Of a stretch of DNA of 64,000 nt, positions 22,279 to 62,282 are shown in pieces. The DNA is taken from IMG/VR virus record IMGVR_UViG_3300003771_000090, positions 1-64,000 of that record; one strand, given 5' to 3'. This DNA comes from a virus. Position 1 is the stretch's first letter; every line of letters begins with the position of its first letter. Below the pieces are notes generated by a model. It worked only from the letters and a program-made list of their open reading frames with translations. It had not been told where the DNA came from and did no database searches. A program made the translations under genes and the position numbers.

Positions 22279-22290
22279 AATAGGTACACC

Positions 22291-26806: not shown

Positions 26807-27249
26807 TGGCGAAGCCGAGATCCGTCACAGTCGAGAACGAGGACGCGCTGAAGGCAGCGCTCAACGACCTGGATGAGATCGCCAGTGAGTCGGTGCTCCG
26901 CCAGGCCGCCGTCGCCGGCGCGCGCGAGATCCATGCCGAAGTGAAGCTGCGCGCGCCGGTCGACAAGGGCATCTATGAGGGCAAGCAGAGCAAGCGTCCG
27001 TTCGGGTTCCTGCGCGAGCACATCATCATCGCGTACGACGAGGAAGTGTCCATTCCTGGCCGATTGGCATCGTACATCGTGACGTGGTCCAAGGAGGCGT
27101 TCTACGGCCGGTTCCTCGAGTACGGCACGTCGAAGATGGCCGCGCAGCCGTTCCTCCGACCCGGCTTCGAGGCAAAGCGGAAGGCCGCCTCCGCCGCAGT
27201 CGACGAGGTCATCCAGCAAAAGGCGAAGGAGTTTTCCGGTGGCAAATGA
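26806..27249 (+). CDS. HK97 gp10-like tail protein
   Basis: A 147-residue protein with the gp10-family pattern: basic N-terminal helix, [13 protein letters not shown] (start of the conserved beta domain), and [21 protein letters not shown] at the C-terminal half. These proteins act in head-tail joining or tail completion. Here it lies between GT and the tape measure. Overlaps the next gene. Confidence 0.82.
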
Positions 27250-29980
27250 AACCGTAGTTCGCGTCACAGCTGACGCCAGCGGATACAAGGCCGAGCTGGA
27301 CAAGGCCCGGGCCAGCGCTGATGCCTTCATTGCGAAGCAGGAAGAGGCAGCACGCCGCACAAAGGCAGCGCAGGACGCAGTGGCAGAGGCGGCCAAGAAC
27401 GGTTCCGACGCCAGCGCACGTGCGATCAACGCGTACGTCCAGCAGGTTGCGCGCTTGTCGGAGTCGGCCGGCAAGACCCGTGTTCAGCTGCTCGAGCAAA
27501 AGGCTGCCCAGCTGGGCGTGACCGAGGCCGTCGCCGACTACCTCAACAAGCTGAAAGAGGTGGAGCGCAACTCCGGCGGCGGAAAGAAGGTGCAGGACGC
27601 GCTCGAGGGCGTGGGCGTATCGGCCAGGCAGACGGCCGCCGCCATGCGCATGGTGCCGGCCCAGATGACGGACATTGTGACGCAGCTGGCCGGCGGGCAG
27701 AGCCCGCTGCTGATCCTGACGCAACAGGGTGGTCAGCTGAAGGACATGTTCGGCGGCATCGGGCCGGCAGTGCGCGCGGTTGGGACGTACGTGTCCAGCT
27801 TGATTAATCCGTTGACGGTCACCGCCGCTGCAGCGGCAGCGCTGGGCTATGCGTTCTACGCAGGCAACAAGGAAGCCAAGGAGTTCAACAATACCCTGGC
27901 TCTGACGGGTAACTATGCCGCTCAGACCGCGTCGTCGTTCCAGGGGCTGGCGCGCCAGGTGGCTTCGGATGCCAATTCATCGTTCGGCGATGCGCGTGAC
28001 GTGCTGCTGGACCTCACGAAGAGCGGACGCTATACCTCCAGCGAGATGGAGTCGCTGGCCGCGGTGATCCTTCGGACCTCTCGGGCAACGGGCGAGTCGC
28101 TGGAAAACGTCAGCAAGGACTACGCAAAGCTGGCCGAAGATCCGGCAAAGTGGGCAGCAGAGCACAACCAGTCCATGCACTTCATGGACGTGGCGACCTA
28201 CCAGCACATCGTGGCGCTGCAGGAGTCAGGAGACAAGCACGCCGCCCTGAAGGCGGTAATTGACGCCACGACGGCCCAGGTTGCCAGTTCTTCTGTCGCC
28301 AATCTGTCCAAGGCTGAGCAGGCGTGGCGCAGTGCCACCGCGGCAGTCTCCCGCTTCTGGGAAGAAACCAAGAAGGGACTGTCTACCGGCCCGACGCTGC
28401 AGGACCGGATCGACACGCTGATGGGCGAGCGTAGTGACATCCAGAGCAACCCTCTGGCCGCCGGCCGCGTCAAGCAAATCGATCAGCAGGTCGCACTACT
28501 TCAAGAGCAGCAGCGCATCGAGCAACGGGCGGCTGAGACGCAGGCGGCGAACGCCAAGCGGCAGGAAGCTGCCATCGCCGCCCAGCAGCGTGTCGACAAG
28601 ATGGCCGACACGGTGATGTCGAACGCCCAGCGCCGCCAGAAGGAGCTGGAGAAGCTGCAGAAGGACCGCGAGGCGATCTTGGCCGGTGGCGGCAAGTTCT
28701 CGGACGAAGACTATGCCAAGCTGGTGGCGGGGATCAACGACAAGTACAAGGATCCGAAAACCCCGAAGGCCAAGGCCGTTCAGGATGACGCGGCAACTCG
28801 TTTCATCCAGCAAATCCGCGATCAGGACGCTGCTACCCGCGCCGCGTTGGAGTCGAGCGACAAGCTGACAAACGCCGAAAGGATGCAGGCCAAGTTCCTC
28901 CAGGACATTTCCGACCTGAAGGAAAAGAAAATCCTCACGGCGGACCAGAAGAGCTTGCTGGCGCGGCAAGATGAAATCAAAGCGACGCTTCAGCAGTACG
29001 TCGCCGATGATCGGCGCCTTAAAGTGAAGGAGGACATCGCCAAGCTGGAGGAGCGGTCGGCAGCAGTAAATGCCCAGATCAGCAACTACCAGAAGTCTCA
29101 GAACGAGCAGTACCAGCGGCAACTGGACGCCATCGGGCGCGGCGGTGAGGCGCAGCGCCAGGCGGAGGCAGTCAAGTCGATCCACACCCAGTACGAGAAT
29201 CTGCAGCTGCAGTTGGAGAAGGCAACGCCGGCGGCTGCGCGCAACTCCGAGGCCTACGTAAAGGCGCAGAAGGACATCAGCGACGGCCTCCAGCAGTCGC
29301 TGGCGGACTACGATACCTACTACTCGACGCTTCGCGAGAAGCAGACGGACTGGGTGAACGGCGCCACCGAGGCCATGGCCAACTACGCTGATTCGTCGCG
29401 CAATGCGATGGCTCAGGCCAGCAATGCCGCGACCAATGCGTTCAAACGTATGGAGGACGGCATTGTCGCCTTCGCGACCACCGGTAAGTTCAACTTCGGC
29501 GACTTCGCCCAGGCGGTGATTGCGGACCTGATCCGCATTCAGGCTCGCGCGGCGTTGTCAGGGCTGTTCGGACAACTGGTAGGGCTGGCCACCGGCGCGT
29601 TGGGCGGCGCCGGCGGTACCGACACCGGTACGGCGGGCATCTCCAGTACGTCCCCTGTGGACATGAGCACGGTAACCGGGGTGGAAATGCGCGCCGGTGG
29701 CGGCTCTGTAAATGCTGGTCAGCCGTATATCGTCGGGGAAGTCGGCCCTGAGTTGTTCGTGCCCCCTGCCTCTGGAAGCATTGTTCCGAACGGCGCGCTT
29801 GGCAGCGTCGGCGCGGCTGGTGGTGGGGATGTGACGATCAATCAAAACATCCACATCGACAGTCGCTCCGACCAGGCGGTGATCTTGACGGCAATGAGGC
29901 AAGCGAAGGACGCCGCGGTCGCGGAGGTCAAGAAGAACTTCGCGCGTGGCGGAGACATCAGCCAAACAGCCAGGAGATAA
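27239..29980 (+). CDS. Tail tape measure protein
   Basis: A 913-residue protein. An N-terminal coiled coil (20-110) is followed by the TMP_2 block [20 protein letters not shown] near residue 138, hydrophobic helices (about 180-205), long coiled coils (380-700) and the lambda-type C-terminal region [20 protein letters not shown]. Its length sets tail length, and its hydrophobic part may enter the host membrane. GTG start overlapping the gp10-like gene. Confidence 0.92.
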
Positions 29981-29982
29981 GC

Positions 29983-30576
29983 ATGGCAGTCCTCGACTGG
30001 CCTGACGGCATTGTTCCGTCGAAGGCGACGTGGAACCTGAAGTCGAATACGGAAAGCTTCACGTCGCCGCTTAACGGCTCGTCGCAAACCATTGAGCGGC
30101 CTGGTGCGCGATGGAAGGTTTCACTGGAGTTCCCGCCTCTGAAGGATCCCGATCGTGGTCGGCTGGAGGCCTTCCTTGCCGCCCTCAACGGCATGGCGGG
30201 TCGATTCACAATCTGGCCGCATGGGCGGCCTGGTAGCTCTCCCTACAGCCCGCTTGTCAACGGAACTCTGACGGACTTTAAATCACTTCCGACCAAGTCT
30301 TGGCCAGCTTCAACGGTGGTCCTGCGCGCGGGAGATTTTCTAGCCGTAAATGGCGAACTGAAGATGGTTACTGCGGACGTGACCAGCGATTCGAGTGGGC
30401 TGGCTAGTGTTCCGGTATCGCCACCGTTCCGAAAGGCTCCGGCGGCAAACTCGGTGATCACGCTGAACAAGCCGCGGGCGACGATGATGCTGGCCTCAGA
30501 CGAAAACGGGATAGCGGTCGTCCAGGGAAGGTTCTCGGACTCTGTGGCGATAGGGATGATTGAGGTGTTCTTATGA
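29983..30576 (+). CDS. Distal tail protein (M-like position)
   Basis: A 197-residue protein with WPDGIVPSKATWNLKSNTES and a DRGRLEAFLAALNGMAGRF motif typical of the tail-tip component that follows the tape measure in phages of this type. Coupled to the next gene by four bases. Confidence 0.7.
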   Translation: MAVLDWPDGIVPSKATWNLKSNTESFTSPLNGSSQTIERPGARWKVSLEFPPLKDPDRGRLEAFLAALNGMAGRFTIWPHGRPGSSPYSPLVNGTLTDFKSLPTKSWPASTVVLRAGDFLAVNGELKMVTADVTSDSSGLASVPVSPPFRKAPAANSVITLNKPRATMMLASDENGIAVVQGRFSDSVAIGMIEVFL

Positions 30577-31127
30577 CGCGCGCCTTGGATGGAGGGACTG
30601 TCTCGGCAGTTACTTCCGGCCATGTTCCATACCTGTTCTTCGTGGAGTTGGGGTTCTCGAGTCCGCTTCGTGTCTGCAGCGCCGGCTATGACATGGATTG
30701 GAACGGATTTACGTGGATGGGGCTCGGTGCACTCGGCAGTATCGAGCCTGTCGAGGAGCAGGCGGGCCTGGAGGCCATCGGCGTTAGCCTGACTTTGACT
30801 GGCGTCCCGAGCGATATGGTCGCGATCTCGTTGCTGGAGCAGTACCAGGGTAAGCCTTGCCAGATATGGTTTGCACCGCTCCGCGAGGACATGCAGCTCG
30901 TGGTGCAGCCAACGCGTCTGTTCTCTGGACGGATGGACACGATGAACACGGAAGTGGGCGATACGGCGACAATCACCCTTTCGGCTGAGTCCCGCATGGT
31001 TTCCTGGGATCGACCGAGAACCCGTCGCTTTAACAACGAGGATCAGCAGAGCCGCTATCCGGGGGACCGCGGCCTCGAGTTCGTGGCGCAGATGGTAGAG
31101 AAAAACCTGACTTGGGGGCGTGGATGA
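30573..31127 (+). CDS. Minor tail protein (L-like position)
   Basis: A 184-residue beta-rich protein (LFFVELGFSSPLRVCSAG, then LEAIGVSLTLTGVP). It resembles DUF2163-like tail-tip proteins by pattern. It sits second in the tip cluster and probably forms the hub between tube and J. Confidence 0.68.
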   Translation: MTRALDGGTVSAVTSGHVPYLFFVELGFSSPLRVCSAGYDMDWNGFTWMGLGALGSIEPVEEQAGLEAIGVSLTLTGVPSDMVAISLLEQYQGKPCQIWFAPLREDMQLVVQPTRLFSGRMDTMNTEVGDTATITLSAESRMVSWDRPRTRRFNNEDQQSRYPGDRGLEFVAQMVEKNLTWGRG

Positions 31128-31525
31128 TGCGTCTGGATGACTGGCCTACGAGACTGGCCGCCTTTGTCGAAGCCCGCCGAGAGCGGGCTTTTTCTTGGGG
31201 CGAATCCGACTGCTGCCTTTTTGTCTGTGACGGCGTGGAAGCGATTACCGGTGTGGATCCTGCGGCCCGTTGGCGCGGTCTGTACACGAGCGAGAAGGGA
31301 GCGCGCCGGCTCCTGCGAGACAACGGCGGAGTGGCGGGGCTGGCGGAACTGGCCTTCGGCTCTCCGATTCAGACACCACTGGCTGGCCGTGGCGATGTGG
31401 TGCTTATCGATACGCCGGCCGGAGAGGCACTTGCCCTATGCACTGGGCAAGTGATTGCCGCGCAAGGTGAGGTCGGTCTCGAATTCCATCCCATTGGCGC
31501 CGCAAAGGCTGCATGGAAAATTTAG
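31124..31525 (+). CDS. DUF6950/NlpC-P60-like tail-tip protein (K-like position)
   Basis: A 133-residue protein. RAFSWGESDCCLFVCDGVEA contains a candidate catalytic Cys in the context seen in NlpC/P60-like tail hydrolases. A His/Gly-containing strand AGRGDVVLIDTP follows. It may cut peptidoglycan at infection; the second catalytic residue is not certain. ATGA overlap with the upstream gene. Confidence 0.65.
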   Translation: MMRLDDWPTRLAAFVEARRERAFSWGESDCCLFVCDGVEAITGVDPAARWRGLYTSEKGARRLLRDNGGVAGLAELAFGSPIQTPLAGRGDVVLIDTPAGEALALCTGQVIAAQGEVGLEFHPIGAAKAAWKI

Positions 31526-31534
31526 GAGAAGCGC

Positions 31535-34500
31535 ATGCCAGCAGCTGCAGCAGCTGCAGTAGCTTCAGCAATCTTTAGTGCAGCAGGTGGTGTTGCGGCC
31601 GGTGCATTTGCTGTGGCTGCTGCAACGATAGCGTACGGCGCCGCGTTCGCGGTGGTATCGCTTGGTATTTCCTTCGCCATTGGCTCCCTCATGGGCGCGG
31701 TGTTCAAGCCCCGCAGTCAGAACGGCTTCTCGGCAGAGGCGCAAGGCCGCTCACAGGTCGTGCGGTCCAATATCCAGCCGCGCAATCTCATCTACGGCCG
31801 GGCCATGACATCTGGCCCTTTGGTGTTTGCGGCAAGCACCGACGAGGGTGACGCCAAGAACCGATACATGCACCTGGTTATCGCGCTGGCAGACCATGAG
31901 TGCGACGCGATCGAGGAAATCTATCTAGGGGAGGATCCGGTCGGGCCGTTGGACGGCAGTGGGTATGTCACGAACAGCAAGTTCATGAAGAACTACGGTC
32001 AGGTGCGTACGGACGTCATGCCCGTGAGCATGGGTGGCGGTGAACAAGCGGTCATCTCGATGCCGTACTTTATCTGGCGCGTGATCTCCGTGGTGGCCAA
32101 CCTTTCGGATGGGTCCTCGCAGGTCGTCAAGGACTTCACTTGGGACGAAAATAGCCCCACGCTTCGGATGCGCGGCATGTCACCCGACACCACGTCTGTC
32201 ACCGTGAACTACGAAACGCGCTATGTACGCGCCTTCGTCAGGGTGAAGAAGCATCTGGGCAGCGCCGACCAGGCCGCCGACAACGATCTGGTTTCCGAGG
32301 TGTCAGACTGGACATATGACCACCGGTTGCAGGGAATTTGCTACATCTACGTCCGCCTGGAATACAACTCGGATCTGTTCCCGAACGGCATTCCGAATGT
32401 GAAGGCGCTGGTGAGAGGCAAGCGGCTCTATGATCCACGTAAGGGGATCACGGCGTTCACGGATAACTGGGCGCTGTGCGTTTACGACTACCTGCGCGAC
32501 GAGCGGGGTTTCGGATGCGCTGACTCGGACATCGATCTGCAGTCGGTAGTGACTGCGGCGAACATCAGCGACGAGACTGTTGCCCTGGCAGGCGGCGCTG
32601 GCCAGTTCCGCTATCGCTGCAATGGGGTGGTGATGTCGGACAAGTCGCCACGTGACAACTTGTCGGAGATGGCTTCGGCGGGCGGCGGCCCGATCGTGAT
32701 CAGTGGAGGTGTCTTCCGCGTTTTCGCGGGGGCGTACGACATTCCAACGGTCACGCTCACGGAAGATGACCTGCGCGGACCGGTCAAGGTATCACCTCGG
32801 ATCTCCCGCAAGGACCTGTTCAATGTCGTGAAGGGCACTTTCGTTGATCCGTCGAACGCATGGCAGCCTTCGGATTTTTCGGCAGTAAAGAACTCCACCT
32901 ATGCGACGCAGGACGGAGAGGTCATCGAGCGCGACATAGAGCTGCCTTTCACTACGGACGCGATCATGGCCCAGCGCCTGGCCAAGATCATCCTGGAGCG
33001 GTCGCGGCAAGGCATCGTCGTTGACTTCCCGGCGAAGCTGACGGCCTTTCGGCTGATGGCCTACAGCACGGTCTATCTGAAGCTGGACAAGTTCGGTTGG
33101 ACCAATAAGGTCTTCCGTGTCATGTCGTGGAAGATGAGCTCCGATGGCGGCATTGACCTGGTGCTGAACGAGGAAGGCTCAACGGTCTACGACTGGAATT
33201 ACGGAGACGCGACAGTAACAGACCCGGCGCCGGACACCAATCTTCCGGACCCGTACGTGGTGGAAGCGCTCGGCCAGATCAGCATGGATTCTGGCGAGGA
33301 TCAGCTGATTTTGAGCCAGAGCGGCGTGGTGACGTCACGGATTCTTGTGTCATGGCCGCCGGCTCGGGAATCGTCGCTCGCGCAGACTGGCCGAGTGGAG
33401 ATGCAGTACATCCGGGCCGATGGCGGGGATTGGACGCCGCTCGCGCCGCTGACCGCGGACACGACCAGCACCTACATTTCGCCGGTGGACGACGGCAAGC
33501 CGTACGTGGTCAGGGGCCGGTTTGTTTCAGCCCTGGGCGTTCGCAGTCCGGATTGGACTTACTCCGTGGTCCACATCGTAGTCGGGAAGTTGTCGCCGCC
33601 GGCCAACATGACGGGCCTGTCGCTGAATGCCCTGAACGGCATGGCCAATCTGACGTGGGACAGCGCGGTTGATCTGGACGTACGTAATGGCGGCCAGGCA
33701 AGAATTCGGCACACGACGGATCTGGTGCAGCCGAGCTGGGGCAGCGCCATCGACATCGGCGGGTTGATCTCGGGCGCGGCGAACTCGGCACAGTTGCCGC
33801 TGCTGACGGGGGTGTATCTCGGGAAGTGGATCGACTCGACCGGGCACGAGTCACCACAGGCAGACATTGTGATCACCACGGCGCCGTCGCTGGTGGATCT
33901 GAACATTGTCGCAACCGTCGCCGAACATCCGACGTTCGCGGGCGCAAAGACGGACGTGGTGCTGGACCCTGCGCTCAACGGTATCAAGCTCGTCGGTGCT
34001 GGACTGATCGATGATCAGGGGCTGATTGATGCGACAGGGTTGTGGGATACCCAACCTGCTATCGATGGGCTCGGAAAGATCGACGACGTGGTCGGGCAGG
34101 GCGGCTGGGGGCTGATCGACTCTCTCGGTGGTGTCGTTGGAAGTGGGTCTTACGCTTTCGCTCAGTCGCTGGATCTCGGTGTGGTCGAGAAGTCCAGGTT
34201 GACGGCGACGATAGACGCGGTGTCGTTTGATACCGGCGACATGATCGACTTCCGCACAGATCTCATTGATTCGTGGTTGGACATCGATGGAGCCCTGATT
34301 AACGACACGTCGGTTGTGCTGTATGTGCGAACCACGGAGGACGACCCCGCCGGCTCGCCCGCCTGGACGGAATGGCAGCGGTTTGCCATGGGTGACTACG
34401 AGGCCCGCGCATTCCAGTGGAAAGTCGACATGGCAAGCGAGTCGGCTACGCACAACGTCGTCGTGACTGGCTTGTCGGTCAGCGTGGATATGCCAGATCG

Positions 34501-34726
34501 CATCGACTACGCGCGCGGCGTGGTGTCTGCTGCCGGCCCGCAGCTCGTGACGTTTGACCGGGCATTTCGGATCGTGCCAGCCATTGGCGTCACCGCCCAG
34601 AACATGGCGCAGGGCGACTACTTCACCGTCACCTCGCCAGGCCAGGCCGGATTCACGGTCAACTTCTTCAACGCAGCAGGTACGCCGATCTCCCGCAGAT
34701 TCGACTGGGACGCGAAAGGCTATTAA
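31535..34726 (+). CDS. Central tail fibre / host-specificity protein J-like
   Basis: A 1063-residue protein. The N-terminus is hydrophobic with two possible membrane helices (residues 2-55). The hub region (80-560) carries IQPRNLIYGRAMTSGP and the VFRVMSWKMSSDGG type strands of gpJ. Fibronectin-III-like domains follow (about 600-740), then a beta-rich tip. It is expected to recognise the receptor with the distal fibre. Confidence 0.85.
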   Translation: MPAAAAAAVASAIFSAAGGVAAGAFAVAAATIAYGAAFAVVSLGISFAIGSLMGAVFKPRSQNGFSAEAQGRSQVVRSNIQPRNLIYGRAMTSGPLVFAASTDEGDAKNRYMHLVIALADHECDAIEEIYLGEDPVGPLDGSGYVTNSKFMKNYGQVRTDVMPVSMGGGEQAVISMPYFIWRVISVVANLSDGSSQVVKDFTWDENSPTLRMRGMSPDTTSVTVNYETRYVRAFVRVKKHLGSADQAADNDLVSEVSDWTYDHRLQGICYIYVRLEYNSDLFPNGIPNVKALVRGKRLYDPRKGITAFTDNWALCVYDYLRDERGFGCADSDIDLQSVVTAANISDETVALAGGAGQFRYRCNGVVMSDKSPRDNLSEMASAGGGPIVISGGVFRVFAGAYDIPTVTLTEDDLRGPVKVSPRISRKDLFNVVKGTFVDPSNAWQPSDFSAVKNSTYATQDGEVIERDIELPFTTDAIMAQRLAKIILERSRQGIVVDFPAKLTAFRLMAYSTVYLKLDKFGWTNKVFRVMSWKMSSDGGIDLVLNEEGSTVYDWNYGDATVTDPAPDTNLPDPYVVEALGQISMDSGEDQLILSQSGVVTSRILVSWPPARESSLAQTGRVEMQYIRADGGDWTPLAPLTADTTSTYISPVDDGKPYVVRGRFVSALGVRSPDWTYSVVHIVVGKLSPPANMTGLSLNALNGMANLTWDSAVDLDVRNGGQARIRHTTDLVQPSWGSAIDIGGLISGAANSAQLPLLTGVYLGKWIDSTGHESPQADIVITTAPSLVDLNIVATVAEHPTFAGAKTDVVLDPALNGIKLVGAGLIDDQGLIDATGLWDTQPAIDGLGKIDDVVGQGGWGLIDSLGGVVGSGSYAFAQSLDLGVVEKSRLTATIDAVSFDTGDMIDFRTDLIDSWLDIDGALINDTSVVLYVRTTEDDPAGSPAWTEWQRFAMGDYEARAFQWKVDMASESATHNVVVTGLSVSVDMPDRIDYARGVVSAAGPQLVTFDRAFRIVPAIGVTAQNMAQGDYFTVTSPGQAGFTVNFFNAAGTPISRRFDWDAKGY

Positions 34727-38401: not shown

Positions 38402-38647
38402 ATGCAACTCATCGAAGACTGGAAGAAGCAATTCCCCAAGCTCTGGAGCGTGCGTCTCTCGCTGCTGGCCGGCGTGATGTCGAGCGCGGAAGCGGGCCTT
38501 GAGCTGTATTTCACTGGCCGTCCGGCACTGGTGTCCCTGGCTGCAGCACTCGTGTCGTTCGGTGCGGCATTCGCCCGCGTTGTTTCGCAGCCGGACCTGC
38601 AGGCCATCCTGCAGGAGATCCAGGACGCACGGAAGTCTGACGAATGA
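38402..38647 (+). CDS. Holin
   Basis: An 81-residue protein. Two hydrophobic segments (LSLLAGVMSSAEAGLELYF and ALVSLAAALVSFGAAFARVV) and a charged C-terminal tail match small class II-type holins (DUF7940-like). It would form membrane pores at lysis and immediately precedes the lysozyme gene with a four-base overlap. Confidence 0.75.
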   Translation: MQLIEDWKKQFPKLWSVRLSLLAGVMSSAEAGLELYFTGRPALVSLAAALVSFGAAFARVVSQPDLQAILQEIQDARKSDE

Positions 38648-39123
38648 AGCCAGCGGCCAAGCGAACCCTGCAGGCGTCCGTCGGCGCCAGCGCTGCGGCT
38701 CTCCTGCTGTCGTACGTCCCGAAGTTCGAAGGTGTTGTGCTACGCGGCTACAAGGACCCGATCGGCATCGTGACGGCATGCGCCGGCCATACCAAGACCG
38801 CCGTGCTGGGCCGCCCTTACACACCAGGCGAATGCTCGTCGCTGCTCGATAGCGACCTGGTTGAGCATGCAGACGGCGTGCTGGCCTGCACACCGGGGCT
38901 GAAGGGCCAGACCTACCGGCTCGCTGCAGCGACGAGCTTCGCGTTCAACGTGGGGGTGGCGGCCTACTGCAAGTCGTCCATGGCCCGAAAGTTCAATGCC
39001 GGCGACTACGCCGGCGCGTGCGCCGAGTTCTCGCGGTGGGTCTACGCCGGCGGCCGGCAGTTGCCAGGCCTGGTGAAGCGTCGGGAGACTGAGCGCGCTA
39101 TGTGCGAGGGGAGGATCTCATGA
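38644..39123 (+). CDS. Endolysin, GH24 lysozyme with N-terminal anchor
   Basis: A 159-residue T4/P22-type muramidase. Candidate catalytic triad Glu29 (FEG), Asp38 (YKDP) and Thr44 (GIVTACAGHT). Residues 10-25 (ASVGASAAALLLSYV) form a weakly hydrophobic signal-anchor-release-like segment, suggesting Sec export and membrane tethering until the membrane is de-energised. Coupled to holin and Rz. Confidence 0.88.
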   Translation: MKPAAKRTLQASVGASAAALLLSYVPKFEGVVLRGYKDPIGIVTACAGHTKTAVLGRPYTPGECSSLLDSDLVEHADGVLACTPGLKGQTYRLAAATSFAFNVGVAAYCKSSMARKFNAGDYAGACAEFSRWVYAGGRQLPGLVKRRETERAMCEGRIS

Positions 39124-40567: not shown

Positions 40568-40954
40568 TCAATCCTTGCGCGGCAGGGTGGCCCGGACCTT
40601 TTCCAGTACCCGCCGGTGCTTGTCCTCCGCCTCTTCCCATGTCTCCGATTCAAAGGACTTGCTTAGGCAGCCGCTGATCGTCGTCAGGAACATGGGCGGC
40701 TTGTCGTCCTTCAGGCTGGCCCAGCCCGAGAAGTAGGTCCAGACGTCGACAGCGTAAGCCGGCAGGATGTCTTTGATCTGCCAGGCCTTGCCCTCGCAGC
40801 ACTGCCACATGGAATGCTCGGTGTAGTCGTAGCACCGGACCGGCCGGCCGGCGTCGTCCAGGGTGTAGTAGCGGTCGTAGTCCGGGAGGATCGGGTTGAC
40901 AGGCAGACCGCCTGGCGGGACGGGTGGGCGAGGCTTGGGAGCAAGGCGCGGCAT
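40568..40954 (-). CDS. Hypothetical protein under an SOS box
   Basis: A 128-residue protein: a Pro-rich N-terminus (APKPRPPVPPGGLP), then an alpha/beta domain with YTLDDAGRPVRCYDYTEHSM and EAEDKHRRVLEKVRA. It has its own terminator, and a LexA box only 12 bases before its start codon. A DNA-damage-induced prophage gene acting near excision or induction is a reasonable guess. The family is not recognised. Confidence 0.65.
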   Translation of the reverse strand: MPRLAPKPRPPVPPGGLPVNPILPDYDRYYTLDDAGRPVRCYDYTEHSMWQCCEGKAWQIKDILPAYAVDVWTYFSGWASLKDDKPPMFLTTISGCLSKSFESETWEEAEDKHRRVLEKVRATLPRKD

Positions 40955-40965
40955 GGCGAAGTGAA

Positions 40966-40985
40966 TACTGTATGGACATACAGTA
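40966..40985. promoter_or_regulatory. LexA (SOS) box
   Basis: TACTGTATGGACATACAGTA contains CTGT-N8-ACAG and is a 9-base perfect inverted repeat about a GA centre, essentially the E. coli-type consensus used in beta- and gamma-proteobacteria. It stands 12 bases upstream of the gene at 40568-40954. Confidence 0.88.
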
Positions 40986-41071
40986 TATCGCTGCCGGTGA
41001 TTCCTGGACTCTTCCGAGCGGTTACGCCCGTATTACGCCGTTGTGCGCTACAGGCAATATTTACGCGGTTG

Positions 41072-41094
41072 TTCGAGTCCCCTCCCTCGCACCA
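41072..41094 (+). other. Attachment-site core: 3' end of a leucine-type tRNA gene
   Basis: TTCGAGTCCCCTCCCTCGCACCA reads as T-loop, 3' T-stem, acceptor strand CCCTCGC, discriminator A and CCA. The sequence upstream (GCGGTTG) does not pair as a T-stem and no full tRNA body is present, so this is a duplicated 3' end left by integration. GCGAGGG acceptor pairing suits tRNA-Leu. It lies between the two prophages, 185 bases before the second integrase. Confidence 0.75.
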
Positions 41095-41101
41095 ATCCAC
41101 C

Positions 41102-41127
41102 TATAAGTTGCGTAATCGCAACTTATA
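41102..41127. repeat. Perfect inverted repeat beside the att core
   Basis: TATAAGTTGCG-TAAT-CGCAACTTATA is an 11-base perfect palindrome with a four-base centre. It begins eight bases after the attachment core and before the integrase gene. It could bind Xis/Int accessory factors or terminate tRNA transcription; no T tract follows. Confidence 0.6.
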
Positions 41128-41279
41128 CACTCCGCGCCATTCAGTGGCACTACACGCCGCGAAGCCAAGCCCAGCAAAGGCTGGCGGATGTTTTGCGTGC
41201 TTGACCTCGGCCGAGGCGCGCCACTTCCTGGCACTATAGAATCACCCCGCGCTCCCCATTTTTTCCCCACGGATTCCCC

Positions 41280-42287
41280 ATGGCATCCTTTCAGAAAGTG
41301 GCGAAGGGCTGGCGAGTGCAGATTGCTATCAAGGGTCAGCGCGATAGCCGAATTTTTCCGAACAAGTTGCTGGCCACCGAGTGGGCGGCCCACCGCGAGG
41401 CCGATCTTCGCTCCATCGACAACCGCCAGGGCAGCAAAACCCACACCATCGGCGACGTCCTCGACGACTATCAACGCAAGATCAGCCCGACCAAGCGCGG
41501 CGCCCGGTGGGAAAAGCTCCGCCTGGACCTCATTGGCCGCAAGGAGGTTGAGGGCAGTCGCTTCCGCGACATCCTTCTGGTCAATCTGCGGCCCGCCCAC
41601 ATCGCCGCCTGGCGCGATGCCAGACTGCGCGATGGCGTGGCCGGGTCGTCTGTGTCCCGCGAGATGTCCCTGCTGTCGCACGCCCTGCAGGTGGCGCGCA
41701 CCGAATGGGGCTGGCTGGTGACGGATCCGATGAAAGAGGTGCGCCGGCCGCCCGACAATCCGCCGCGTGAGCGCCTGGTCCCCCAGGCGGAGATCGAGGC
41801 GGTACTTATCGCCCTCGGGTACATAGAAGGCATGCCGGTCGTGCGGGCGTCCCAGCGCGTTGCCGTGGCGTTCCTGTTTGCGCTGGAGACGGCCATGCGG
41901 TCAGGCGAGATCCTTGGCCTGACCAGCTTCACAGTGGATTTTGAGCGACGGGTGGCGCGGCTGCCGCTGACCAAGAACGGCCTGGCGCGGGAGGTGCCGT
42001 TGTCGACTCGCGCCATCGAGCTGCTGCGGATGCTGCCGGCGGTGAACGAAGGGGCGCCGCTGTTCAGCCTGGTGCCGGCCAGCCGCGACGCGCTGTTCCG
42101 CAAGGCCAGAAACAAGGCCTGCATCGCGGACCTGACGTTCCACGACACGCGGCACGAAGCCATCACGCGCCTGGCGAAGAAACTGCAGCCGCTGGATCTG
42201 GCCCGGATGACGGGCCATACCAACTTGCAGGAGCTGATGACTTACTACAACGAGTCGGCGTCCAGCATCGCGCAGCGCCTGGGCTGA
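41280..42287 (+). CDS. int: Tyrosine recombinase integrase of prophage B
   Basis: A 335-residue protein homologous over its full length to the first integrase. The catalytic motifs ETAMRSGEILGL (Arg), HDTRHEA (His, Arg), GHTN (His) and MTYYNES (Tyr) are intact. Differences concentrate in the N-terminal arm-binding part, as expected for phages with different arm sites but the same core. It starts 185 bases after the tRNA-like attachment core. Confidence 0.95.
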   Translation: MASFQKVAKGWRVQIAIKGQRDSRIFPNKLLATEWAAHREADLRSIDNRQGSKTHTIGDVLDDYQRKISPTKRGARWEKLRLDLIGRKEVEGSRFRDILLVNLRPAHIAAWRDARLRDGVAGSSVSREMSLLSHALQVARTEWGWLVTDPMKEVRRPPDNPPRERLVPQAEIEAVLIALGYIEGMPVVRASQRVAVAFLFALETAMRSGEILGLTSFTVDFERRVARLPLTKNGLAREVPLSTRAIELLRMLPAVNEGAPLFSLVPASRDALFRKARNKACIADLTFHDTRHEAITRLAKKLQPLDLARMTGHTNLQELMTYYNESASSIAQRLG

Positions 42288-42311: not shown

Positions 42312-42620
42312 TCAGTCCGCATTGCGCGGACGACCACGCGGCTTGTCCTTGTACGACTCTGCCCAGGCCACCACCTCCGAGGCCTTCCAGCGAGGCAGGG
42401 CCTTGGCCGCCGCACCGCCGCCCGACTGCACGGACGGAATCCGGATCGCCTTCGGAAAATCCGGCAGCGTAACAATCCGCTCCCGCACCACCTTGGGCGA
42501 GCGCACCAGGAACTCGGCGATCCGATCCACATCCCACAGCGCCACGCTCACCGGCAGCGCCGGCCGCACATGATCGGCAACGGCCACGGCGATGCGTTCG
42601 ATCAGATCCCCGTTATTCAT
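42312..42620 (-). CDS. AlpA/excisionase-like DNA-binding protein of prophage B
   Basis: About 102 residues from MNNGDLIER. The core WDVDRIAEFLVRSPKVVRER and the KGRPRNAD-like basic end correspond to the protein at 1020-1322, and it holds the same convergent place beside int. Probably the directionality factor. It is the distal gene of the leftward early operon. Confidence 0.78.
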   Translation of the reverse strand: MNNGDLIERIAVAVADHVRPALPVSVALWDVDRIAEFLVRSPKVVRERIVTLPDFPKAIRIPSVQSGGGAAAKALPRWKASEVVAWAESYKDKPRGRPRNAD

Positions 42621-43110
42621 CGCGCGCTCCGTCGATACGAGCATGCACCGCGCGCCACCTGGGCGCGTTGTCGCCGTGGTTTTGCTGGTCCTCCACCGCC
42701 AACGTCACCTCCAACAACTCCCTCCTCGTACACATCTGCTGAATTTCATCGGTCAGATTCAGCGCCCGCCCAATCACCCTGAACTCGTCTCCAGTAACCC
42801 CCAGCCGGCCCCGAGCCCGATACCGCTTTCCCACCGCAGCAATCGCCTCCACCGCCGCATCCATCGCCTCGCGCAGCTCACGGTTCTCGGCGAAGTAGAG
42901 AGCTGCGGCGAGCTGGCCGACATTCACACGAAAGCCCAGCGTGAACCAGGCATTTTCCGTGGCCGTGCCGTCCAGAATCTTGCTTAGCTCCACATGGGGA
43001 ATGAGTTGCAGATCCACCTCGGCCTTGTTGCTAAATCGATAGCACGACGGCAGACGGGCCACACGCGGCTGGTGCGCCCGCCGGTTCTTCCGATGTTTAC
43101 TCGCTGGCAT
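42613..43110 (-). CDS. Hypothetical P2-like early protein (165 aa)
   Basis: The N-terminus is very basic (SKHRKNRRAHQPRVARLP) and the remainder helical with acidic and hydrophobic repeats. Overlaps the Xis-like gene by eight bases. Seen as an early protein in P2-like phages of beta-proteobacteria; function unknown. Confidence 0.65.
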   Translation of the reverse strand: MPASKHRKNRRAHQPRVARLPSCYRFSNKAEVDLQLIPHVELSKILDGTATENAWFTLGFRVNVGQLAAALYFAENRELREAMDAAVEAIAAVGKRYRARGRLGVTGDEFRVIGRALNLTDEIQQMCTRRELLEVTLAVEDQQNHGDNAPRWRAVHARIDGARDE

Positions 43111-43711: not shown

Positions 43712-46420
43712 TCAAGCTCCCAAATTCGCCGGCCGATCCTCGAACACCCAGCACTTCACAGTGGCAGGGCGTTTCGGCTGATGGATGTGCTCGGCGTTAA
43801 ATCGCGCGTTGATCGCGCTGTTGACGACCCGCAGATCAATGAACTTGCGGTGCCGAGATGTCTTCAGCACGCGTTTCAGTTCGGGCAGCGGGGGAAGGTT
43901 CAGGCGGCGGTCGTTTGCCACCTGTTCGAAATGACGCAGGCTGATGGCGATAACGCCATCGCCTCGGGCGTGGTTCAGCACCGCCTGGTCGTCGGCGGCA
44001 GACTCGATGTGGTCGTACAGTTCCCAGAAGTCCTGCACCAGCGGGTGATCGGCGCCGATGGCCTGCTGGCGTTCCACGGCCATCTGCACCAGCTGGCGCT
44101 GTGCGGCATCGCGGTATTCAGCCGGCACCGGCAACACCATGGGCAGGCAGTCGACCATCGCCATGATCTGCGCGTGGTTCTTCGCCAGGCGCTGGTTCTT
44201 GACGTCGGGATTTCGTATCAGCGTGTCCTGGTAGTGCGGCATGCGCTCGACAAAGCGCGCCAGAATGTCGTCTTCCTTCAGGATGGCCGACAGCAGGAAG
44301 CCCGACACATCCTCCACCGGCATCTGTTCCAGCGCGCGGGCGGCGGCGAAAGTGTCGGCGTCCTGGCCCGAGCGGTCGAAGTACAGATGAACGATCCGCT
44401 GCAGGATGGCGTCGCTGGCGCACACGTCGGCGTTCTGACTGATCACCACCGCGCCACGGAAGGGCGATTCGTCGGTCTCGTTCCCCGAATTCTTCACGCC
44501 GCGCGAGCGAGAGCTGCGGCCGTTGTAGGCAGTTTTCAGCTCGTTCCAGTCGAAGCCCTTGACCTTGGCGCCGTCATCGCCACGGTCGGCCTCGATCATC
44601 ACGACTGGCAGATTCGACACCTGCGAGAAATTGCGCGCCCGCGCCGCGATAGACGCCTTGGACGGGTCAAAGCCCTCGTAGTCGCGCCGGCCGCACAGTT
44701 TCCACAGGAACTCGATCAGCGTGGATTTGCCGGCGCCGGGCTCGCCCACTACCTCCAGGAACGGGTAGCTCTTCTGCTTGATGCCGTCGCCTTCACGGAT
44801 CTGCTCCACAAACAGCGACCCGAGCCAGAACGCCAGCGCCACGATGGCCTTCGCGCCGAACGCGCGCCACAGCGTGTCCAGCCAGTCGTGCCGGAAAGCC
44901 TTCAGGTCAGTGTTCAGGGAAAGGCCGGCCGAGCCGAGAATGCTCTTGATCGACAGCCGGCCGATGTCGAAAAAATCCTCGTCGTTGAGCGTGTAGAGCT
45001 TGCCGTCCTTCACCGCTACATCGGAGTACACATAGCACCCGCTTTCCCTGGTGTAGCCGACATAGTTGATCGTCTGCACGCTCTTGATGCGGTGCATTTG
45101 CTCTTTCAGATAAGTGTCCAGCTGCCCGTTCGATCCGGTGTAGAACGCCCCCGGCGCCACGGCCAGCAGGCGCTTCTTGAACTCGGTAGCCGACGCCACC
45201 TGGGCGCTGGTGAACGTGTTCTTGATCGGCGCGGCATCGTGCGGAAAGGCGACGCGGAAGTAGTACCAGGCCTCGTCGGTGGCCGCGTTCGCCTGGTAGT
45301 AAAGGACGGTGGGCAGGCACGTCGCGATGTTCGTGACTACCCCGGCCTTTAGCATCGCTTCGTCGCGGATCTCTGTTTCATCGAGATGTCTGTGCGTGCT
45401 GCGCACCGCATCCATCTCGCGCGTCAGCGCGTCCAGGTCGAGCTTGAACCAGTAAAGCCTGCTCTCGAAGTCGAACGCGAACTGGCTCATGCTGGTGCGG
45501 CCATAGATCAGTCGTGCCTTCTCGGCCGCCGTGGGAGCGGCCAGCAGGTCGCCCAGATACCGGTACTCGGCAATGTCCTGCTCGGTCAGCTTGTCCAGCT
45601 GATGCAGATCGTTCCAATCGAGCTTCTTCTTGCCTCTCTGCCTTGGCAGCGCGATGGAGGCTTGCCAGCCGTCCTCGCGACTGCGCTTGAGCCATTGCCT
45701 GGCATACCGCATGCCGGCCTTGTCCGCATCCAGCGCCCACACCAGCCGTGGTCGTGGCTTGCCATTGGCCGCGCACTGTTCGGCCACGCCGCGCAAGGCG
45801 TGCGCGGGGTAGTTCGTGCAGGACAGGGCCGACGCTGCGGCGATGCCGTGGTGGAGCAGGGCGATGGCATCGAACACGCCCTCCACAATCCACAGTTCTT
45901 CGGCGCCGCCAAGGTTCGCTCCCGGTGGTTGCCACCACATCCCCGCGTAACTGCCGTGGAAGGTCGCCTTGCGGTCCCCAAAGCGATGCGCCTGGTCGAT
46001 GATCCGTTCCCAATAGGCGCCGGGCGCCAGCGCAAAGCGCACCGTGGCGCTGCCGATCTTGAGTTCGTGGCTGTAGTAACTCTCCTGCGTGTACCAGTCG
46101 CGCACTTTCGCCAGATCGAAGCCGCGGCCGTCACGCATGTACGCATCGGCCGACGCCTTCGGGTTCTCAGGCGTGGGGCGGAAGCGGTCTGACCAGCTCT
46201 CAAAAAGATCGGGGTACAGATCCTTGATATGCAGCTCCGCACCGCATTTGTTCAGCCGGTTGCAGCGGATCACCCACGGCGCATCGCCAAACGCCCATAG
46301 CGCGTTCTTGCCGCAGGATGGGCAGTGGCCCGCCTCCAGCTTCGCGCCGGACTGCTTCTGCTTGAACGCGTAGTCGCGCAGCAGGCGGCTGGTGACATCG
46401 GAATGCAGGGATGGGTCCAT
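43712..46420 (-). CDS. P4-alpha-like primase/helicase replication protein
   Basis: A 902-residue multi-domain replication protein. Zinc-binding motif (Cys33, Cys36, Cys53, Cys59), Toprim primase core (Glu180 in LWIVEGVFDAI; Asp231-x-Asp233 in VWALDADKAG), and a helicase domain with Walker A GEPGAGKST (559-567) and Walker B VVMIEAD (606-612). The combination primes and unwinds DNA at the phage origin, a role filled by gene A and B products in P2 itself. It is the main gene of the leftward early operon. Confidence 0.9.
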   Translation of the reverse strand: MDPSLHSDVTSRLLRDYAFKQKQSGAKLEAGHCPSCGKNALWAFGDAPWVIRCNRLNKCGAELHIKDLYPDLFESWSDRFRPTPENPKASADAYMRDGRGFDLAKVRDWYTQESYYSHELKIGSATVRFALAPGAYWERIIDQAHRFGDRKATFHGSYAGMWWQPPGANLGGAEELWIVEGVFDAIALLHHGIAAASALSCTNYPAHALRGVAEQCAANGKPRPRLVWALDADKAGMRYARQWLKRSREDGWQASIALPRQRGKKKLDWNDLHQLDKLTEQDIAEYRYLGDLLAAPTAAEKARLIYGRTSMSQFAFDFESRLYWFKLDLDALTREMDAVRSTHRHLDETEIRDEAMLKAGVVTNIATCLPTVLYYQANAATDEAWYYFRVAFPHDAAPIKNTFTSAQVASATEFKKRLLAVAPGAFYTGSNGQLDTYLKEQMHRIKSVQTINYVGYTRESGCYVYSDVAVKDGKLYTLNDEDFFDIGRLSIKSILGSAGLSLNTDLKAFRHDWLDTLWRAFGAKAIVALAFWLGSLFVEQIREGDGIKQKSYPFLEVVGEPGAGKSTLIEFLWKLCGRRDYEGFDPSKASIAARARNFSQVSNLPVVMIEADRGDDGAKVKGFDWNELKTAYNGRSSRSRGVKNSGNETDESPFRGAVVISQNADVCASDAILQRIVHLYFDRSGQDADTFAAARALEQMPVEDVSGFLLSAILKEDDILARFVERMPHYQDTLIRNPDVKNQRLAKNHAQIMAMVDCLPMVLPVPAEYRDAAQRQLVQMAVERQQAIGADHPLVQDFWELYDHIESAADDQAVLNHARGDGVIAISLRHFEQVANDRRLNLPPLPELKRVLKTSRHRKFIDLRVVNSAINARFNAEHIHQPKRPATVKCWVFEDRPANLGA

Positions 46421-54950: not shown

Positions 54951-56084
54951 TCAGGACTCGTCGGCAACTTCCGTACCACGAGTGGCCGCTTCCATCTCTA
55001 ACGCCGATGTGAATCCATTCCCCGAGTATGCGTGCGTAACCTTTGCGACCACCCACCCCGCCCCATCAATCTCCGTCTTCCACCCCCTCACGCTCGCCGC
55101 CAACTCCGGAAACACCTCCGGCCGCCCTCGAGCCAGGGTGATCCGGAACGACGCGACCCCACGTTGGATCCTCTGCCATTCCGCCCGTGCTGCGCGTTCG
55201 GCGTTGGACTTGGTGGCATAGGTATGCCGCAGGACTTTCACATTATCGGGATCGGAATTCACCAGGACGTCAGCCGCCGACGGCTTCTCGGTCGATGCTG
55301 AACCGGTTGAGGTCTTGGACTCGGTCGACCCACCCACCACCACTTCACCTTTCTCTGCCCGCCGTGCGTCCTGGTAGTACGCCTTCACGCCGTTGTAGTT
55401 GTCCCGATCCGCGACCGTAAAGCTGTGGGTGTCCCCGCTGGCCCGTGTGATCGTAACGGTGGGCAGCGGCACGCCTGACGCGCTCTGCGCCGCGCCGGTG
55501 CTGATGAACAGCAGCTTGCCTTGCTTGACCGTGGCGATGGCGTCGTGGTCCTTAGCCAGGCGCGTGAGGAAGTTGGCATCCGATTCGCCGGTCTGATCTA
55601 TATGGTCGATGACCAGGTGGTCGAGGGCGGCGGCGATTGCGGCTGTCAGGCCATGCCGCGCGGCGATGGCCCGGACGATGACGCCGATGGTTTGGCCGCG
55701 GTACGACTGTTCCTTGCGCGTGGTAAGGCCGCTGGCGAGGTCGGCGCTGCGGGCGCGGATGGTTAGGCGGTCTGGTGGGCCGGTGTGTTCCAGCTCGTCG
55801 ACCTTGTACGTGCCCTTGTCGACCACGCCCGTGTCCTGCCAGCCCAGGGCCAGTGACAGCGTGGCGCCTTTGTCGGGCAGGTCGAGCATACCGTCTGCAT
55901 CGTCCAGTTCGATGTCCAGCTGGTCGGCCTCGAAGCCACGGTTGTCGGTCAGCGTCAGGGAGATCAGCCGGCCCTGGAAGCGGCTGGTGATGTCGTGCTT
56001 CCCCTGCATCAGTCGGTACACGGGCACAGCGGCGGTGCCGGAGATGCTGTCGGGCAGGGTGGTGGTCGGCGGGATGGCTGTCAT
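54951..56084 (-). CDS. D: Tail protein D (late control/baseplate hub)
   Basis: A 377-residue P2 gpD homologue: YRLMQGKHDITSRFQGRLIS start, LTIRARSADLASGLTTRKEQ, YRGQTIGVIVRAIAARHG, SDANFLTRLAKDHDAIATV and a C-terminal WVVAKVTHAYSGNGF. gpD is the VgrG/T4 gp27-like hub of the baseplate. It overlaps U by four bases and is the last gene of the late tail operon. Confidence 0.93.
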   Translation of the reverse strand: MTAIPPTTTLPDSISGTAAVPVYRLMQGKHDITSRFQGRLISLTLTDNRGFEADQLDIELDDADGMLDLPDKGATLSLALGWQDTGVVDKGTYKVDELEHTGPPDRLTIRARSADLASGLTTRKEQSYRGQTIGVIVRAIAARHGLTAAIAAALDHLVIDHIDQTGESDANFLTRLAKDHDAIATVKQGKLLFISTGAAQSASGVPLPTVTITRASGDTHSFTVADRDNYNGVKAYYQDARRAEKGEVVVGGSTESKTSTGSASTEKPSAADVLVNSDPDNVKVLRHTYATKSNAERAARAEWQRIQRGVASFRITLARGRPEVFPELAASVRGWKTEIDGAGWVVAKVTHAYSGNGFTSALEMEAATRGTEVADES

Positions 56085-56521
56085 AGGCCTGGTGTTGTGC
56101 GTGGCAGCATACCGAGGAGACCGCCACCGATGACATCCTCGGCCTGGCCGTCCACTCGCGTCAGCCGAACGGAAAACTCGATGCGCCGCGCCTTGCCGTC
56201 GCGGAAGAAGAGGGTGCGGGTGATCGACAGCGAGTCAATTTCGAACATGCCGTAGTAGCGGCCCGAGCCCTCGATCAGCACGTATGGCTGGCCGGTGTCG
56301 CCCATCTGTCGCAGGAGGTCGATGGTGTTGTCACCGCCGCTCAGCTCGGGCAGCAGCACGCCGGACAGCGACACTGTCTCGTCGTCCAGGCCGGTGTACT
56401 GCCGCGATGGCCGGCGACCCACCCGATTGTTCGACGGGTGGCGCCAGCCGATCTGCTGCTGGAATTCCTGGTAGGGCGCCGTCTCCAGGGCGAAGACGAA
56501 CAACCCGAGGGCCATCATCAT
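56081..56521 (-). CDS. U: Tail protein U
   Basis: A 146-residue P2 gpU homologue starting MMMALGLFVFALETAPYQEF with QIGWRHPSNNRVGRRPSRQY, the invariant part of the family. It is a tail/baseplate hub protein required for tail completion. Located between T and D as in P2. Confidence 0.93.
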   Translation of the reverse strand: MMMALGLFVFALETAPYQEFQQQIGWRHPSNNRVGRRPSRQYTGLDDETVSLSGVLLPELSGGDNTIDLLRQMGDTGQPYVLIEGSGRYYGMFEIDSLSITRTLFFRDGKARRIEFSVRLTRVDGQAEDVIGGGLLGMLPRTTPGL

Positions 56522-56524
56522 GGG

Positions 56525-59344
56525 TCAGTCCCTGTCGGTGAGCCGGGATCGGGCGCGGGCGGCGCGCTGCCCCTCCAGCCGCTCGATCCGCTCGGCCACC
56601 AGGCGCGCGATCAGCTGCTCGTCGGCGCCGGCCGGCGGGTGGATGTGGATGACGACCGGCGCCGGAGCTGCCGCCGGCGCGGCACTCGCGGCGCGGGAGG
56701 GGCCTGCGATGGGCGGACGGGTGTCGAACCGGACGGCTGCGGTCGCCTGGCCGGTGCCGATGGCAAGTCCTGCCCCAACGCCGGCCATCGCCGTGGCGAC
56801 GCGCGAGACGACGCCCAGCGGGCCTTGCTGTCCCCGCATGAGACCTTGCTCCAGCCCCTGCATGGTGAAGCCGCCCAGCGCGGCGAAGACGCGGCTGGGG
56901 GAGCGGATGCCGAGTTTGTCTTTGAACCAGCCAATGGTCTTGTCGGCCACTCCGCCAATGGCGTCTTTCACCCAACCAATCGCGCCGGTGATGCCATCAA
57001 CCAGTCCGCGCATCATCATCCGGCCGAAGTCGGAGAACTTGGCAGGCATGTCAAAGCCGAACCAGCTCATGACAGCGGCGAAGGCCTTGTAAAACAACCC
57101 AACTGGTGACCAGTTCAGGATAATTGCCGCCACGCTACCGACGCCGCCCTCGCATGCCTCAGTCACGGCCCTCCAAAGTCCGAGGAAGAACGTCTTGATA
57201 GGCTCCCAGTGCTTGATCAGCAGATAGGCGCCCAGAGCGATGGCGGTAACGGCCAAGCCGATGGGATTGAGCATCAGGGCGCGACCTACGATCCAGAAAA
57301 TCTTCATGAGGAAGTTGAATGCACCGGCCAGCCGGGTAACGATGCCCACGCCACCGCCGAGCTGGATTCCCAGCATCGACATCCCGTAGCGCACGATCAC
57401 TAGCGGGCCCAACGCCGCCGCCAGTGCCAGCGTCAGGGCGCCAAGCACCGTTAGCAACGCACCCACGGCCGCGGCGCCTTTGAGGAGCCAGGACACCAGC
57501 TGCGGATGCGCCTGGGTAAAGGCGTCGAAGCGGTCGATCAGGCGTCCCACCGTATCCATCAGCCCGACGAGCGTCGAGCGCAGCGCCTCGCCGCCGGCGC
57601 TGCTGGTGTTGAACAACTGGTTCTGCAGGCGCTGCCAGCGGGCGGAAACAGTGTCTTGCCGCGCGGCGAACTCGCGCGACATGGAGCCCTTCGCCTTCCC
57701 ACCGTTGGCAAGGTCGAGTTGGCGCCGCAGCTCGTCGGGCTTGTCGACCAGCTTGGCCAGGGTGTCGGAGTGCTCCATGCCGGCCAGCTCAACCATTACA
57801 CCGATGCGCTTGTCCTTGGGGAGCCTTTGGATAGCCTCAATGACCGAAAATATCGTGCCCATCGCATCGGTACCCATGCCTTTCTGGATAGCCTCGGAGG
57901 AGAGACCGATTTCGGCCACAGCGGATTGAAATCGCTTCGTGCCTTTCTCGGCCGCTGCGAACTTTTGCGTGATCGCGTTGATGGCTGTGCCAGCGGTTTC
58001 GGTGCGTTCGCCGAGCGTCAGTAGCGTGGAGGCGAGGGCCGCCGCATCATTCGCGGACATGGCCACCGTGGACACCACGCCAGACGTGCGGTTCAGTACG
58101 TTGATGATGTCGTTGCCCTTGCTGATGGCGTTGTCGTCGAGGTAGTTGATCGTGTCGGCCAGGCCCATGATGGCGCCAGTGGGGATCCGAAAGTTCTTGG
58201 CGACCTTGCCCATGCTCTCGGCGATCTCGTCTGGCACGGCATCAAAGGCGGTGGCCATCATGGCAACGGTACGGGTGTAGGCGATCAGTTCCTCTCTCGG
58301 TACTTCCATGCGGGCGCCAGCTGTGACCATCTCGGCGATACGGGCGGTGGGGATCGACAGGTCCTTGCCCAACTGGCGGATCTCGCGCGCCATGTCGTGA
58401 TAGACCTTCGTCAGCTTGCCGTGCTCGTCGCGCGCGCCTGGCACTTGACGGGCGATGCCGAGCATGGCGTCTTCGAAGGTGACGTAGTCCTTGACGGTCT
58501 TGGCGACGGGTGCCAAAACAATCCCGCCGGCGGCGGCAGTCGAAGCGCCAGCATTGAGCACTGTATTCCGCATTGCCATGCTGTTTCTGTACTTGGTTTG
58601 GGCAGCGGCGAGAGCCCGTTGACGGTCGCCAACCGCCCTCAGCAGCGCTTCCTGTTGCCGGAGCCGTTGGTTTGCACCGGCGAGTCTGTCGGCCAGGTCG
58701 CGCTGATGTTGGCCCAGATCCTTTGTTTTTATGCCAGCGGCCGTCAGGCCGCCACGCATGTCACGCAGCTTGCGAATGTTGTCTGCGTGCGCGCCGCGCA
58801 GCCTCTGGGCCTTGTTTGTCGCATCCGAGACCTCCCGCTGCAGGGCGCGGTACTGTGTGGACGTGACGGACACCTGAGAGGCGGCAGCCTTGTGCGCTGC
58901 CATCAGGCGGACGACTTCCTTGCGAGCTGCCAACTGTTCAGTGGTCAGTTTTCGGTAGGCTTCGGAACTGTGTGCGCCGGCGCGCTGCAATGCCTGGATC
59001 GTAGCGATGTTGGCGTTGTATGCCGCCCGGGCCGACTTGAGCTGGGACGCCAGCTGCGACTTGGTGCGCATGGGGGCATCAAGCTTGTCCAGCCGGGCTC
59101 GCAGAGAGGCCGCGTGATCGTTGGCATTGCGCATAGCCAGCGAACTGTCCTTGAGGCCCCGTTTAAGCTCCCGGAAATCCGCCAGTTGCTTTTGAGATGC
59201 CTCGAGGCTCTTGATCTGAGCCTTGGCCGCCTTCACCGTTCTGGCCAGTTCAGTACTGCCGTCCATGATCGCCTTGAACGGCCGCGTCATCTTGTCAACC
59301 GCCTGCAGCACGACTTCCAGCCTGAGGTTTCTCGGGGTGCTCAT
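56525..59344 (-). CDS. T: Tape measure protein T
   Basis: A 939-residue P2 gpT-type protein: N-terminal LRLEVVLQAVDKMTRPFKAI, long coiled coils (40-260), the TMP domain (VTFEDAMLGIARQVPGAR and AEMVTAGARMEVPREELIAY), hydrophobic helices (about 625-705), and a C-terminal GIRSPSRVFAALGGFTMQGL segment. It sets tail length. The start overlaps the E' stop. Confidence 0.93.
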   Translation of the reverse strand: MSTPRNLRLEVVLQAVDKMTRPFKAIMDGSTELARTVKAAKAQIKSLEASQKQLADFRELKRGLKDSSLAMRNANDHAASLRARLDKLDAPMRTKSQLASQLKSARAAYNANIATIQALQRAGAHSSEAYRKLTTEQLAARKEVVRLMAAHKAAASQVSVTSTQYRALQREVSDATNKAQRLRGAHADNIRKLRDMRGGLTAAGIKTKDLGQHQRDLADRLAGANQRLRQQEALLRAVGDRQRALAAAQTKYRNSMAMRNTVLNAGASTAAAGGIVLAPVAKTVKDYVTFEDAMLGIARQVPGARDEHGKLTKVYHDMAREIRQLGKDLSIPTARIAEMVTAGARMEVPREELIAYTRTVAMMATAFDAVPDEIAESMGKVAKNFRIPTGAIMGLADTINYLDDNAISKGNDIINVLNRTSGVVSTVAMSANDAAALASTLLTLGERTETAGTAINAITQKFAAAEKGTKRFQSAVAEIGLSSEAIQKGMGTDAMGTIFSVIEAIQRLPKDKRIGVMVELAGMEHSDTLAKLVDKPDELRRQLDLANGGKAKGSMSREFAARQDTVSARWQRLQNQLFNTSSAGGEALRSTLVGLMDTVGRLIDRFDAFTQAHPQLVSWLLKGAAAVGALLTVLGALTLALAAALGPLVIVRYGMSMLGIQLGGGVGIVTRLAGAFNFLMKIFWIVGRALMLNPIGLAVTAIALGAYLLIKHWEPIKTFFLGLWRAVTEACEGGVGSVAAIILNWSPVGLFYKAFAAVMSWFGFDMPAKFSDFGRMMMRGLVDGITGAIGWVKDAIGGVADKTIGWFKDKLGIRSPSRVFAALGGFTMQGLEQGLMRGQQGPLGVVSRVATAMAGVGAGLAIGTGQATAAVRFDTRPPIAGPSRAASAAPAAAPAPVVIHIHPPAGADEQLIARLVAERIERLEGQRAARARSRLTDRD

Positions 59345-59768
59345 TCGTCGGATCCGCTACGCTCGTAGGCGCGCTGGCGCCATTCCATCAATTCGGCGAC
59401 CCCCATGGCGTACATCACGTCTGGGGGCCAGTGGAAGATCACTGCAATGTCGGCGACGGCGTGCTCGATTCGGTCTGGAAGTTTTCCTCCCTGGCCGACT
59501 TCGGCAGCAAAAAACTGGCTACCGCCGTGCCTAGCTGGGTCAGGTCGGCCGGGTCCAGCCTACCGACGTCATGCTGCGTCAGCGTGGGATTGGTGATGCG
59601 CGGCAGCACCAGGTGAAGGGCGGACACGTCCATCCGCATCAGGTCGATCAGACTGCAGCCGCGCAACTCGCCGGAGCCCGGCTTGCGCACCTGAATCTTC
59701 GAGATGGTTTGCTCGCCGCGCTGGATAGGCTGGTCGAGGTCGATGTCTACGGTGGTGGGTTGGGTCAT
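59341..59768 (-). CDS. E': Tail assembly chaperone E+E', made by -1 frameshift
   Basis: The zero frame to the slippery site (87 codons) and then -1 gives about 142 residues. The E' part reads DRIEHAVADIAVIFHWPPDV and MGVAELMEWRQRAYERS, the hallmark E' sequence. The stop overlaps the T start by ATGA. Frameshift production is established for P2 E+E'; here it is inferred from the conserved site. Confidence 0.9.
59439..59768 (-). CDS. E: Tail assembly chaperone E
   Basis: A 109-residue zero-frame P2 gpE homologue (VDIDLDQPIQRGEQTISKIQ, RKPGSGELRGCSLIDLMRMD). It contains the slippery site near residue 86 and is normally the major product; a shifted fraction reads into E'. Confidence 0.9.
   Translation of the reverse strand: MTQPTTVDIDLDQPIQRGEQTISKIQVRKPGSGELRGCSLIDLMRMDVSALHLVLPRITNPTLTQHDVGRLDPADLTQLGTAVASFLLPKSAREENFQTESSTPSPTLQ
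59508..59514 (-). promoter_or_regulatory. Slippery site T TTT TTG for programmed -1 frameshift
   Basis: On the minus strand AG-T TTT TTG is in correct phase for a -1 shift from E to E'. The same heptamer is used in P2. Confidence 0.9.
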
Positions 59769-59800
59769 GATCGTTTAGACACAAGTGGTTGGGGGGAGGG

Positions 59801-62272: not shown

Positions 62273-62282
62273 GAGAGTCTCT

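Follow-up and report, generated by a model that had tools for sequence, protein, structure and literature searches.

Two prophages at one tRNA-Leu(UAG) gene

Two unrelated phages with related integrases very probably (about 0.93 by our estimate) form a tandem, or double, lysogen at the 3' end of one tRNA-Leu(UAG) gene within the window, i.e., the whole stretch of DNA analysed, bases 1–64,000 of the 72,685-bp IMG/VR virus record IMGVR_UViG_3300003771_000090. The left element, prophage A, and the right element, prophage B, meet at a copy of this 3' end. In relatives, integrases of both types follow a tRNA-Leu(UAG) with a further copy of the attachment core at the far end, which supports the tandem lysogen at a shared tRNA target that an earlier, sequence-only reading had proposed. 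In the mechanism we propose, both tyrosine integrases would use the 3' end of the host's only tRNA-Leu(UAG) gene as their recombination site, and each phage would carry in a copy of this end, so that the tRNA would stay intact at the outer left and a body-less 3' end would come to lie at each phage boundary. B would have integrated first, A would have entered later by recombination at the attL of B beside the tRNA, and B would since have lost its head genes. We infer that the intact tRNA lies to the left of base 1 and that the host is a bacterium of the Cupriavidus group.

The junction is a hybrid of two attachment sites

The attachment core, CCCCTCCCTCGCACCA, lies on the plus strand at 41071–41094. 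It had been described as a 23-base core at 41072–41094; this 23-mer is real and occurs once in the window, and no chance match was expected from shuffled sequences even when three mismatches were allowed, but the true length is 24 nt, as the identity between the window and the tRNA spans 41071–41094. The 23-mer is the 3' end of tRNA-Leu(UAG) and is identical in Cupriavidus sp. D384 and Ralstonia sp. 25mfcol4.1, which bears out the assignment to a leucine-type tRNA. The claim that a tRNA 3' end without a tRNA body lies exactly between the prophages was likewise confirmed: the core is unique, and ARAGORN predicted no tRNA anywhere along the record, inside or outside the window. A search of the junction against Rfam gave no matches. 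Of 60 genomes of the group, 59 contain the 16-nt 3' end of the tRNA, mostly once, indicating that the target is normally present as a single copy.

To the left of the core, 87 of 129 alignment columns were identical to the attR of an A-type prophage in the relative G047, compared with 71 of 143 for a B-type attR. The right end of A (40568–41070), consisting of a 128-aa minus-strand ORF (40568–40954) and the A-side att arm, matched the G047 attR region at 80% over 632 columns from position 40572 onwards; this match covers 40572–41194 and includes the A-side arm. To the right of the core, the B-side arm between core and int B (41095–41279, plus strand) was identical at 179 of 185 positions to the attL arm of a B-type prophage of Cupriavidus sp. 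D384, which encodes a 99% homolog of int B. One phage thus supplies the left half and the other phage the right half of a hybrid attR(A)/attL(B).

The B-side arm holds a perfect 11-bp hairpin (41102–41127) directly past the CCA of the tRNA end. A hairpin in this position is conserved in the B-type arms of G001, G002, G038, G045 and G047, in most of them as GTTGCG-n4-CGCAAC; with it the phage may provide the restored tRNA with a terminator. On the A side, a perfect palindrome resembling a LexA box, CTGTATGGACATACAG (40968–40983), is situated just upstream of the 128-aa minus-strand ORF. The loose LexA-like pattern is expected 0.87 times by chance, and the palindrome itself extends over 22 bp; the ORF may possibly be under SOS control.

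Related integrases in two unrelated prophages

Int A (1–1023, plus strand, 340 aa) and int B (41280–42287, plus strand, 335 aa) both possess the PF00589 domain (E = 2.9e-21 and E = 2.1e-18, respectively) with the R, HxxR, H and Y of tyrosine recombinases (AMRSGE, HDTRH, GHTN and TYYN in the alignment); a search of a phage database returned weak integrase matches only. The two proteins are 66% identical, in agreement with the close relationship that had been claimed for them. Both integrase genes are accompanied by a minus-strand gene, encoding a protein of 100 aa in A (1020–1322) and of 110 aa in B (42312–42644), and these proteins share 43% identity as well as a match to phrog_4996, a family without known function. 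The kinship seen by the sequence-only reading between these genes therefore holds, whereas its term 'Xis-like' denotes a candidate excisionase function suggested by their position next to int.

Prophage A is lambda-like and complete. Its plus-strand head module (18542–23679) comprises, by Pfam and PHROG matches, the large terminase subunit (18542–20200), portal (20388–21605), head protease (21586–22278) and major head protein (22291–23679). It is followed on the same strand by a tail module (27239–34726; PF06791, PF09718 and PF13550) with a long, lambda-type tape measure (27239–29980) and a tail-tip protein (31535–34726), and by the lysis genes for holin and endolysin (38402–39123; phrog_1356 and phrog_7), as in a lambda-like siphophage.

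Prophage B encodes a primase-like protein with a Toprim domain (43712–46420, minus strand; PF13155 and PF13362). Measured against the gene order of P2, it has a contractile tail module in P2 order on the minus strand, of which the part within the window (54951–63863; Pfam and PHROGs) includes a D-like tail protein (54951–56084), the tape measure (56525–59344), the sheath (60345–61574) and a tail fibre (62283–63863). The region 54921–66065 is 98% identical to the B-type prophage of D384, and the baseplate genes run on to about position 66042 of the record. Since B has no head module in the record, we limit its classification to the P2-like tail module.

The intact tRNA and the distal core in relatives

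The left end of the record is exactly the ATG of int A, the right end (72685) is the ATG of a minus-strand ORF, and both ends look cut at gene boundaries. Neither the intact tRNA nor the outer attR of the window's own array lies within the trimmed 72,685-bp record, and no further core copy was found in 64001–72685, up to the cut at the right-hand gene start. As the record is trimmed, the presence of a tRNA on the left and of a core on the right was determined in relatives.

In Cupriavidus sp. D384, a complete tRNA-Leu(UAG) is followed after 185 bp by the 99% homolog of int B, and a second copy of the core (attR) lies 39.2 kb away; Ralstonia sp. 25mfcol4.1 has the same layout with a 91% homolog. 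For the A type, G047 has an intact tRNA-Leu(UAG) immediately followed by a 96% homolog of int A, and the core recurs 46 kb further on; G047 also matches several stretches in the left part of prophage A. The IMG/VR record 3300005511_000076 contains a relative of int A (84%) in a 25-kb element bounded by the tRNA on one side and the core on the other. The intact tRNA at the outer left is present in G047, G002 and G023, and G023 displays a full array of tRNA-core, int, 66 kb, core, int, 36 kb and core. Two further tandems are present in G009 and in Pandoraea pneumonica (G003), where a body-less core and an integrase of the same family come after the tRNA-core.

Alternative explanations and the right end of prophage B

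Several other origins of the arrangement were considered. A tandem generated by duplication is ruled out: A is lambda-like, B has a P2-like tail, and the two have no DNA similarity outside int, which marks them as unrelated phages. The int genes themselves are 78% identical at the DNA level over about 440 bp, so that homologous recombination through them, instead of a second site-specific integration, might have brought the prophages together; however, the att core is the exact point of changeover from A to B and is flanked on either side by a phage-specific arm, and we regard this origin as very improbable. Slighter still is the chance that the junction is an assembly artefact joining prophages of different origin, as might be suspected of a trimmed viral record without host flanks. 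The identical junction is crossed by a second record, IMG/VR 3300005511_000058, with 100% identity over 27,883 bp (window positions 17958–45840), albeit the two records could share a strain or study, and other genomes show the same arrangement.

A further explanation extends the tandem lysogen to three elements: next to A, only the left part of B would remain, and a deletion that took away the head genes of B would have joined it to the right end of a third, lambda-like prophage. The homology between the record and the complete B-type prophage of D384 ends at record position 66065, beyond which the D384 prophage continues with tail completion, head (portal, scaffold and major head protein) and terminase genes; none of these D384-type terminase and head genes has a match anywhere in the record. 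The head module of B may thus lie beyond 72685 or may have been deleted. The last 6.6 kb of the record are not B-type sequence and contain two ORFs of 286 and 502 aa, the relic of an IS transposase, an acyltransferase gene in two pieces and a plus-strand lysis cassette. A portion of this cassette (69854–70456) aligns in the same orientation and at 86% identity with the right end of the A-type prophage in G047, which also points to a third element. However, recombination moves lysis cassettes between phages, which would allow for a mosaic B, no core lies between B and the foreign segment, and the record stops before any attR. We consider three elements a real possibility at somewhat less than even odds. 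With either number of elements the tandem lysogen of A and B is retained, and the lack of head genes in the record together with the foreign DNA at its end indicates that prophage B is probably defective.

Some features of the foreign segment were observed in addition. The IS relic (record positions 67387–68091, 234 aa) has an rve domain and appears IS481-like by eye. The Acyltransferase_3 gene (68220–69347), which resembles O-antigen acetylases, is broken into two frames and reads as a decayed surface-modification gene. The hydrophobic-looking 502-aa ORF (71177–72685) matched no Pfam or PHROGs family and has one distant homolog (29%) among 399 genomes of the family; its sole close relative is found in record 3300005511_000859, which ends at the same base.

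Relation to known systems

The arrangement as such is already known. In Mycobacterium abscessus, the tandem prophages prophiT36-2a/2b at a tRNA-Thr with a hybrid attR/attL core have been described and tested (PMC9934374). As in that system, two different phages lie head to tail at one tRNA attB with a hybrid core, whereas host and phages differ; furthermore, in prophiT36-2a/2b the repressor gene contains the attP, which makes immunity dependent on integration, and the tRNA was considered impaired, neither of which is seen here. The Ralstonia phages RSA1, RSY1 and RsoM1USA integrate at tRNA 3' ends (PMC6389784). They share with prophage B the P2-like character, the Burkholderiaceae and the tRNA 3' end as target, but use tRNA-Arg, tRNA-Ser and tRNA-Thr, while B uses tRNA-Leu(UAG). 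The present case is well supported and ordinary phage biology. ICEs and genomic islands with compatible integrases accrete successively at one tRNA att site; the stacking is the same, but those elements are conjugative or mobilizable, and here phages are concerned. The window thus provides a clean, cross-checked example of prophages stacking at one tRNA gene, and calls for caution in that a single 'provirus' record of a database may comprise two or three phages.

Order of arrival

The junction alone tells no order of arrival, as it would look identical either way. Past the attR of several resident prophages in the relatives, about 70–280 bp match the int-side arm of the same or another integrase family. 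In G047 the match of this arm remnant reaches the start of int, and at the body-less core of G045 the arm match amounts to 281 bp and extends into an apparently decayed int start. The scar beyond attR differs in type from the resident element in G047, G002 and G008. The simplest reading, which these scars suggest, is that older elements lie distally and newcomers insert beside the tRNA; where scar and resident are of the same type (G001, G003 and G004), extended homology between phage arm and host flank is an alternative. Taking scars as remnants of older elements, and with B incomplete and A complete, an order of B first and A second is favoured, and the tRNA-proximal A is probably the newcomer. 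The proposal that a second phage integrated beside the first is supported by the hybrid junction and the array in G023, and is refined here by the probable identity of the newcomer and the incompleteness of B. If the element nearest to the tRNA is generally the newest, the order of arrival could be read from sequence.

More broadly, we tentatively propose, with rather less than even confidence, a layered accretion at the tRNA-Leu(UAG) of Cupriavidus, Ralstonia and Pandoraea, in which unrelated phages would carry an exchangeable module of att, int and xis-like gene, newcomers would always be tRNA-proximal and older elements would decay outward into readable arm scars. In G003, 110 kb separate the tRNA-Leu core from the next core (contig 1, 170595–280788), a stretch too long for one usual phage that possibly comprises several elements or an ICE.
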